Shown here in pieces: positions 18,147 through 23,372 of a DNA stretch of 64,000 bases. Each line of letters opens with the position of its first letter. Within the stretch, counting starts at the first letter, position 1. The notes below the pieces were generated by a model, which had not been told where the DNA came from, searched no databases, and saw only the letters and a list, made by a program, of their open reading frames with translations. The position numbers and the translations under genes were made by a program. The stretch comes from Polyangia bacterium. GTDB taxonomy: Bacteria; Myxococcota_A; Polyangia; Fen-1088. The DNA is taken from assembly GCA_036268875.1 (NCBI GenBank), contig DATATI010000014.1, positions 124,001 to 188,000 of the forward strand, given 5' to 3'.

Positions 18147-18893
18147 ATGACCGTCGTGGCGGAAGCGCGTCCCGGACTTACTGAACCCCTGCTGGCCTTC
18201 GCCGGCGCGACGCTGCTGGCTGCGCTGCTGGCGCAGGGGGCTTCGTCGGTCCCGTTTCTGCGCGACAACCTGCACGTGGCCATTGCGGTGATTTTTTTCT
18301 ACGCCCCGCAAGTGGCGGCGCGGTTGTCGCGGCGCCCGTTCGATTACGGCCAGGCCGGCCTGCGCCTGGATCCGCTGGGGCTGAACGCCAAGGTTCTGGG
18401 CGCCGCTCTGGCGCTGACATTCCCGCTTTTTCTGCTGGGATTCTTCTGGTTTTACGGCGTTGTCTGCGGGCCGCACGGCGCGCTGTTCGCGCGTTGGTTC
18501 GGGGGCCTGTGCGCGCGCTGGCACGGCACCGGCGGCGGCGTGCTGACCTTGCCGCCCAGCTTTCTTTTGCTGGCCTTAAACCAGCTGGTGGTGGTGGCCA
18601 TCCCGGAAGAGCTTTTCTTTCGTGGTTACCTGCAAGGACGCCTGGAAGAGCGCTGGCCGGCTCGGCGAAAATTGTTCGGTGCGCCGGTGGGCGCGGCATT
18701 GCTCGTTTCCAGCCTGCTGTTCGCCCTCGGTCACGTGGTGGTGGTGCCGAACCCGCAGCGGCTGGCGGTTTTTTTTCCCGCCCTGGTCTTCGGCTGGATG
18801 CGCGCCCGCACGGGATCGATCGCCGCCGGCGCCGCATTTCACGCCCTGTGCAACCTGTTCTCCGACGGGCTGCACACCTCGTTTTTTCACTAG
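18147..18893 (+). CDS. CPBP-family intramembrane glutamic protease
   Basis: 248 residues with about six to seven membrane segments. The abortive-infection/CPBP motifs are clear: PEELFFRGYL (EExxxR, about residues 153-162), then FALGH and FHALCNLF (motif-3 His). The family are Rce1-like membrane proteases; in myxobacteria some members (myxosortases) process C-terminally tagged surface proteins, but nothing here shows which subgroup applies. The stop codon TAG is the second to fourth base of the left terminus of the 377-bp palindromic element, so the insertion may have set the present C-terminus. Confidence 0.87.
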   Translation: MTVVAEARPGLTEPLLAFAGATLLAALLAQGASSVPFLRDNLHVAIAVIFFYAPQVAARLSRRPFDYGQAGLRLDPLGLNAKVLGAALALTFPLFLLGFFWFYGVVCGPHGALFARWFGGLCARWHGTGGGVLTLPPSFLLLALNQLVVVAIPEELFFRGYLQGRLEERWPARRKLFGAPVGAALLVSSLLFALGHVVVVPNPQRLAVFFPALVFGWMRARTGSIAAGAAFHALCNLFSDGLHTSFFH

Positions 18894-19266
18894 ACCGCTA
18901 TCGAATTGACCCGATCGCGGAGGCGGCACGGGACGAGCGGTAACCGAGGCTGGACGCGCGACTTGGACGGCGCGACAAATTCGGCGTGGTGGGCCGCTTG
19001 GCTGCTTTCGTCGCCGCATGGCATCCGACCGGCTCCGGAACAAGGCTTCCCGACGGCGGAAGGCCTCCCCGGTTCGAAGGCCCAACGGATGATATGCGGC
19101 GACGAAAGCCTTGATGGGAGAAGTGCGTAGACAGAGGCCTTCCGTGGGCGGGAAGCCGCCAAGCGGCCCAGGCCGTCCAATTTGTCGCCACGTCCAAGCC
19201 GCGCGTGCAGCCTGGGTTACGTTACCGATTCACCTTCGATCTCGCTTCAACCTGATAGCGGTCTAG
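18890..19266. repeat. 377-bp nested palindromic element (MITE-like or structured RNA)
   Basis: Terminal inverted repeat CTAGACCGCTATC / GATAGCGGTCTAG. Inside it, 18944-19001 pairs with 19159-19216 at 48 of 58 positions. Within that are X (19004-19027) and X' (19086-19109), pairing 22 of 24 with 16 in a row, and a hairpin unit Y (19043-19066) whose copy Y' (19135-19158) lies outside X', so order is H-X-Y-X'-Y'-H'. There is no open frame of note. A TA or CTAG target duplication is possible at the ends. Either a non-autonomous insertion element or a folded RNA locus. Confidence 0.75.
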
Positions 19267-19280
19267 ACTAGACCAACGTA

Positions 19281-19400
19281 GGCAATCCCGTTACGCGCGG
19301 GGCGAAGATGGGCAGCGTATTGGAGGGCGGCGTTTCGCGCGTTTGCGCTCCTGGCGGCGCGCCCTTTTCCGGATCCGTCAACGACGCGAAGCCGCCTAGG
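19281..19400 (+). repeat. Palindromic repeat family B, shortened copy
   Basis: Starts GGCAATCCCGTTACGCG, continues GGGCGGCGTTTCGCGCG and TTTGCGCTCCTGGCGG.GCGCCC, then GGATCCG and GCGAAGCCGCC. It matches the arms of the fuller copy at 51158-51386, but most of the right arm is missing. It directly follows the 377-bp element and runs almost to the serpin stop codon. Confidence 0.75.
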
Positions 19401-19406
19401 AAATGG

Positions 19407-20720
19407 CTACGGCGCCGACGGATCGACCACCCGGCCCAGGAACAGCAGCGCCCCGGTCTGGTGGTCGCGGATCAGAAACAGAAACGGGCGATCGACGGCC
19501 AAGAGCGTCACTGCCGACATGGTGGCTTGCACCGCGCCGGTGGCGGCGGCGGCTTCGGTGCCTTTTTCGGTGACGGCGATGAAAGTCTTGTGGACCACGT
19601 CGCGCACGAACAGATCGCGGGCGTCGTCGATGGCGGAAAAGTTGGCGTCGGTCGGGCTGAACGCCGCCGGCATGCCCAGCGCCGACAGCGTGTCGCGCAG
19701 GCTGAAGGCTAAGGTGAACTGAAACTTCGGCAGCAACAGGCCCTGGCCCGATGGGGCCAGCGCGGCCAGGATCGCCGCCAGCTGTTCGGCGGTGAACGCT
19801 GCTTCGAAGGCGGCGAAGGTGCCCGCGTCGGGGACGATCACCACCATCGACAGCGCCTTGCCCGAATAAGTCAGCTCGGCGGCGTGGTATCCGGCGCCGA
19901 TGGCCATCGAAAAGCCGGTCTTGCCCCTCATCATGGGCACGCTGACGTCGCTGCCGTCGGCGCGGTGGAACGGATAGTTCATGGTCGGTTCGGTGAACGG
20001 TGTCTGCCAGGCGGCGTTCAGATAGACCGCGTCGGTCAACACCAGCCGGGTTTGCGGATCGATCAATCCGGCTGGCAGCAGGTCGGCGATCTTGCCGTTG
20101 GTTTCTGCGGCCACCCATTGATTGATGGTCAGACGCGCCGGCTCGGGCGCGCCGACAAAGTCGACCTGCTGCACGCCGGCCCCATAATTTTCCGCCAGTA
20201 CATCCAGAAACGCCGGCTCCAGCGTCTGCCTTTGATCGGCCCACAGTGCATTCTTGATCCATAGGGCGAACGGCTGGCCATCGGTGCCCAGTGGCAGGCT
20301 GCCATCGGACGCCGGCTGCGCGCGGCTGTTCAAGGCCAGATCCAGCGCGTCGAACGCCGGGTGCAACCGCGCAGCCGGCAAGGTGAAGTGCAATGTGGTG
20401 GCGATCTGATCGGCGGTCAGGTCGCGGGCGCCGGCGTACACCGTGGCCATCGCCAGCGACAAGCTGGTCGGCGAAAGCACGACGTTGCCTGGCTGCGCGC
20501 TCAGCGCCCCGTAAAGCTGCACCGCGAACGTCGCGTTCTCGGCGGCCAGCATCGTGGCATCCCCAGCAACGACCGTCGGCCGCAGGATGCGGGCTTCGCT
20601 CGACCGCGCCGTCTTGATCGGCAAGGGCCCGCCCGGCGCTCCGTCGCAACCGAAGCCGAGAGCCGCCAGCGGCGTGACCACGACCAGCAAGGCCCACATC
20701 CAACAACGACGGCGGTCCAC
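19407..20720 (-). CDS. Serpin-family protease inhibitor, lipoprotein
   Basis: About 437 residues from the GTG at 20720, 4 bases after the clpB stop. An ATG at 20699 is an alternative, and both give a lipoprotein signal peptide ending LAALGFGC. The serpin fold is unmistakable: NVVLSPTSLSLAMATVYAGA, TNGKIADLLPAG, LVLTDAVYLNAAWQTPF, MVVIVPD, and FIAVTEKGTEAAAATGA. The hinge (E-K-G-T-E-A-A-A-A-T) fits inhibitory serpins, and the reactive loop continues VQATMSAVTLLA before VDRPFLFLIRD. It probably traps an extracytoplasmic serine or cysteine protease at the cell surface. Serpins are patchily distributed in bacteria. No protease gene is adjacent. Confidence 0.93.
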   Translation of the reverse strand: MDRRRCWMWALLVVVTPLAALGFGCDGAPGGPLPIKTARSSEARILRPTVVAGDATMLAAENATFAVQLYGALSAQPGNVVLSPTSLSLAMATVYAGARDLTADQIATTLHFTLPAARLHPAFDALDLALNSRAQPASDGSLPLGTDGQPFALWIKNALWADQRQTLEPAFLDVLAENYGAGVQQVDFVGAPEPARLTINQWVAAETNGKIADLLPAGLIDPQTRLVLTDAVYLNAAWQTPFTEPTMNYPFHRADGSDVSVPMMRGKTGFSMAIGAGYHAAELTYSGKALSMVVIVPDAGTFAAFEAAFTAEQLAAILAALAPSGQGLLLPKFQFTLAFSLRDTLSALGMPAAFSPTDANFSAIDDARDLFVRDVVHKTFIAVTEKGTEAAAATGAVQATMSAVTLLAVDRPFLFLIRDHQTGALLFLGRVVDPSAP

Positions 20721-20724
20721 GACG

Positions 20725-23372
<2,648 letters not shown>

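Follow-up and report, generated by a model that had tools for sequence, protein, structure and literature searches.

The window analysed here is a stretch of 64,000 nt of contig DATATI010000014.1 (C14) in the Polyangia bacterium assembly GCA_036268875.1. At 18147-20783 of this window, a bacterial serpin gene and a CPBP-family protease gene are adjacent and convergent, and between them lies a 377-base element that consists largely of inverted repeats. Its parts and neighbours are given below in window coordinates.

18147-18893, + strand: upstream neighbour, CPBP/Rce1-like protease gene (PF02517, E 2.1e-21)
18890-19266 (C14:142890-143266), no strand assigned: whole copy of the very probable MITE, both terminal CTAG included (complete copies on C29 and C70, five partial copies at contig ends)
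18890-18893, no strand assigned: left CTAG, target site or presumed target duplication (CTAG at all 10 copy ends)
18894-18902, + strand: left terminal inverted repeat ACCGCTATC (inverted match at 19254-19262 exact)
18890-18923, + strand: H arm, pairs with 19233-19266 (74% complementary)
18940-19007, + strand: long outer arm, 68 nt, pairs with 19153-19220 (84% complementary)
19004-19027, + strand: X, pairs with 19086-19109 (22/24, first 16 unbroken; unbroken throughout in the consensus of the copies)
19044-19067, + strand: Y, a hairpin by itself, pairs with 19134-19157 (21/24)
19086-19109, + strand: X', partner of X
19134-19157, + strand: Y', a hairpin by itself, partner of Y
19153-19220, + strand: 3' half of the long outer arm, partner of 18940-19007
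19233-19266, + strand: H' arm, partner of 18890-18923
19254-19262, - strand: right terminal inverted repeat (other copies read GATTGCGGT or a variant)
19263-19266, no strand assigned: right CTAG, second copy of the presumed target duplication
19407-20783, - strand: downstream neighbour, convergent serpin gene (PF00079, E 1e-98)

Architecture and predicted fold

The left end of the element overlaps the CPBP gene, whose TAG stop (18891-18893) is contained in the left CTAG, and the termini, CTAGACCGCTATC at 18890 and GATAGCGGTCTAG at 19266, match exactly as inverted repeats. No Pfam family matched the longest ORFs through the element. A repeat search found four inverted-repeat pairs, the order of the inner ones being X-Y-X'-Y', i.e. 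crossed, and these crossed pairs are common to the complete copies. An earlier sequence-only reading of this DNA had described an element without protein-coding explanation that begins in the CPBP stop codon, with matched termini, a long outer stem, a 24-base X/X' stem with 16 unbroken pairs and a Y/Y' pair that crosses it, each unit also folding on itself; all these points were confirmed. To the right of the element, the window reads GGTCTAG-A-CTAGACC (19260-19274), a 15-base palindrome in which CTAGACC (19268-19274) repeats the first seven bases of the element. This repeat is absent beside the other copies and is either due to chance or the trace of a second end.

The inverted pairing is not a chance product of composition. 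The predicted RNA fold of the element has an energy of -227.2 kcal/mol, against -156.5 +/- 5.9 for shuffled sequences (z -12), the DNA fold gave a z of -11.9, and the best 24-nt inverted repeat in the shuffled inner sequence reached at most 17 matched positions in 60 shuffles, compared to the 22 observed. Y and Y' alone fold with -11.9 and -10.9 kcal/mol, respectively. Forcing Y/Y' in place of X/X' gives -217.2 instead of -227.2, a cost of about 10 kcal/mol, so that the form with X/X' is the predicted ground state and the crossed alternative would be minor. The switch between local hairpins and a pseudoknot-like fold that had been proposed is possible in physical terms, but we have found no sign of its use. 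The consensus of the copies folds better than the copy in the window (-242.7 vs. -227.2 kcal/mol), which fits the decay of an ancestral palindrome.

Copies, CTAG junctions and element-free loci

The host assembly comprises 95 contigs and several copies of the element terminate contigs. Three copies are complete, the one in the window and those on C29 (97% identical to it) and C70 (96%), and there are partial copies at five contig ends (C66, C74, C34, C88 and C78). Identity to the window copy is 95-97%, the size varies between 377 and 379 bp, without a transposase gene, and the complete copies differ pairwise by 5 to 14 substitutions. The right junction of C70 recurs on C78, and these two therefore represent a single locus. 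C74 ends beside lgt and C66 starts beside a MATCAP gene. In four same-family genomes these genes are neighbours and converge, and both ends can therefore be taken as halves of one locus. The same applies to C34 and C88, because each carries one half of a tyrosine-recombinase remnant (HHLRHTTASLLLMNGAD at the C34 end and GHLDPRTTTEFYGHL at the C88 end) that is split by the element copy. This remnant appears to be frame-shifted as well. In total there are about five unrelated loci, of which two were deduced from paired contig ends. The host-genome search that the sequence-only reading had recommended did recover several dispersed copies. A small near-perfect hairpin on C29 (93887-93923, CTAGGCCGCTATTGACC...GGTCAATAGCGGGCTAG) resembles the element end and is not a copy. 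The fragmented state of the assembly, with several copies at contig ends, could suggest an assembly artefact at the window locus; however, three copies are complete within contigs, each with its own flanks and substitutions, and contig breaks inside the remaining ones are to be expected from a dispersed repeat, which makes the probability of an artefact negligible.

At all ten copy ends, CTAG is followed inward by ACCGC or by a sequence differing from it in one or two bases. Both ends carry the terminal inverted repeat CTAGACCGCWATC, which in two copies is altered at one or two bases. CTAG itself is depleted about tenfold in this genome (147 observed vs. 1428 expected from base composition in 464 kb, the window included), and its presence at every junction must therefore be a property of the target or of the ends of the element. 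In four cases the adjoining gene has its TAG stop within the terminal CTAG: the CPBP gene (C14), a LON-domain gene (C29), the MATCAP gene (C66) and a gene on C78. For the two genes tested in same-family genomes, LON and MATCAP, the orthologs that lack the element have their stop codon in the same position, indicating that these stops are native and that the CTAG predates the insertion. Three LON orthologs end in AACTAG, after which the sequence is unrelated, and four relatives of the same family have lgt and MATCAP in convergent orientation without the element, with stop-to-stop gaps of -32, -32, 57 and 152 bp. These element-free loci in other genomes of the family indicate that the CTAG sites existed before the element inserted into them.

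The second CTAG is most likely a duplication, of the whole CTAG or of TA, or else was carried in by the element. As CTAG flanks every copy on both sides, the junctions fit the three origins alike. The duplication of TA or CTAG suggested from the sequence would fit the CTAG at all ten ends and the native CTAG stops at the targets, as would a CTAG carried by the element.

Mobile element, structured RNA or transcription barrier

The sequence-only reading had left both a transposable element and a structured RNA as possibilities. The dispersed copies, the CTAG at ten ends, the native stops at the junctions and the syntenic element-free loci support the former, and we are highly confident that the 377-base stretch is a copy of a small mobile element without transposase (a MITE) that inserts at CTAG. 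It is short, lacks a transposase gene, has terminal inverted repeats and is present as dispersed near-identical copies, with orthologous loci that are free of it. A conserved non-coding RNA alternating between local hairpins and the crossed fold could account for the strong fold energy and for the crossed pairs common to the complete copies, but its stems should covary and its locus be conserved, whereas the copies are dispersed and none was detected in the relatives searched. The copies show 29 departures from their consensus, 20 of which (69%) fall in predicted pairs, which comprise 75% of the positions; the pair is lost in 14 of these 20 and preserved in six, through a G-U change on one side. 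None of the 29 departures is compensatory, and the share of transitions that preserve pairing, one half, is what would be expected without constraint. Neither a match above the gathering score in an Rfam search nor a sigma-70-like promoter was found. Taken together, these observations render the RNA very improbable: the element represents a new family within a well-known kind and not a new structured RNA. Its inner pairing is indeed crossed, yet there is no indication of a function for this pairing.

The placement of the copies deserves a separate consideration. Four of the five lie in convergent gene pairs with the TAG stop of one gene inside the terminal CTAG; the fifth (C34/C88) sits in a gene remnant. 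Among the 147 CTAG sites sampled in the 464 kb, 31 overlap called stop codons and only 12 are stop codons of convergent pairs according to home-made gene calls; the binomial probability of the observed placement by chance is about 2e-4, a post hoc value with n=5 and crude gene calls. The simplest cause is the removal of insertions that are harmful, either within genes or by polar effects in operons; a targeting preference would be another. After insertion between convergent genes, the MITE could also have been recruited to block transcription from both sides or to serve as an RNA-processing site, given this placement and a very stable hairpin that is read from both directions. We regard such a recruitment as unlikely, since survival bias accounts equally well for the placement, the pairs of the inserted sequence are under no visible constraint and one of the five copies lies elsewhere, in a gene remnant. 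An extended version, in which transposition itself would prefer the CTAG stops of convergent pairs and the hairpin would act as their shared barrier, i.e. a mobile bidirectional terminator to which the crossed fold would add a switch, appears more doubtful still.

For the MITE, we propose that a transposase supplied in trans, probably of the DDE class, binds the short terminal repeats (ACCGCWATC), cuts the element out or copies it, and inserts it at a CTAG. Duplication of the target, as CTAG (IS5-type) or as TA (IS630-type), would then leave CTAG at both ends, and a gene with its stop codon in the target CTAG would retain it after the insertion. The four copies in stops of convergent genes would be those in which insertion does least harm, and the long internal palindrome, crossed X/Y pairs included, would be ancestral and decaying in the single copies.

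Parent transposase, distribution and known systems

Among the transposase loci of the host assembly whose ends were examined, none had ends matching the element, nor were terminal repeats shared with an IS5-family or IS630-family element found. The sole DDE_3 locus (an IS630-type transposase gene with an open frame of 368 aa at the start of C50, 1-1200) was considered as IS630-type partner, DDE_Tnp_1 (C61, C3) and DDE_Tnp_1_2 (C54) as IS5-type partners and DDE_5 (C78, below the cut-off) as autonomous partner, and those of their ends that were examined differ. Following near-miss ends on C79 and C45 revealed no element. With no parent transposase found, the element is filed only as a MITE, neither IS5 nor IS630. 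The five joined empty sites, searched for a shared target hairpin, had no common structure. On C61, a small contig that may be contamination, there is an insertion sequence (about 4-1494) with a DDE_Tnp_1 match whose ends are CTAG and then GGCATGCACACATCT; it is distinct from the 377-base element but has the same type of target.

No copy was detected in 59 relatives, 318 genomes of the class, 379 sampled genomes of the phylum, plasmids, phages or E. coli, a set that contains no genome of the genus of the host and from which records of its own or a very near genome may be left out. The end pattern gave scattered single matches over the 318 class genomes, with neither extended similarity nor a good inverted partner, two matches to the pattern alone over viral contigs, and 17 single matches in public genomes of unrelated phyla, about the number expected by chance. 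Other genomes also gave matches of 25-46 bp, which appear fortuitous.

The identification explains an odd-looking structured spacer and is a warning that, in GC-rich genomes, long inverted repeats with crossed pairing may be the remains of transposons and not RNAs. Because the target CTAG contains TAG, insertions leave stop codons intact, a simple illustration of how the choice of target can render a mobile element nearly harmless.

One of the closest parallels is MITEPsy1 of Pseudomonas syringae pv. phaseolicola, probably of the IS5 type, also non-coding and with short terminal repeats, which inserts at CTAG (or YTAA) and duplicates its target; it has 100 nt, and its 18-nt terminal repeats are similar to ISPsy2, an element whose listing as IS5 carries a question mark (PMC3189936). 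The present element differs in its size (about 379 bp), its long internal palindrome, its end sequence and in having no identified parent. MITEs thought to be moved by IS630/Tc1-mariner transposases insert at TA, for example the RUP of pneumococcus, a 107 bp MITE attributed to an IS630 element, with more than 100 copies and ends that match IS630-Spn1 (PMC2229807), and IS630 is cited as preferring the TA within CTAG (Tenzen and Ohtsubo 1991, cited in PMC2170065). The absence of transposase, the terminal inverted repeats and insertion at TA are features in common with the RUP type, from which our element departs in its few copies and the lack of a matching IS. Finally, the small mobile repeats (SMRs) of Haloquadratum have terminal inverted repeats, no matching transposon in the genome and no target duplication (PMC3119063); the element described here shares the first two features, whereas the CTAG at both of its ends makes a duplication likely.
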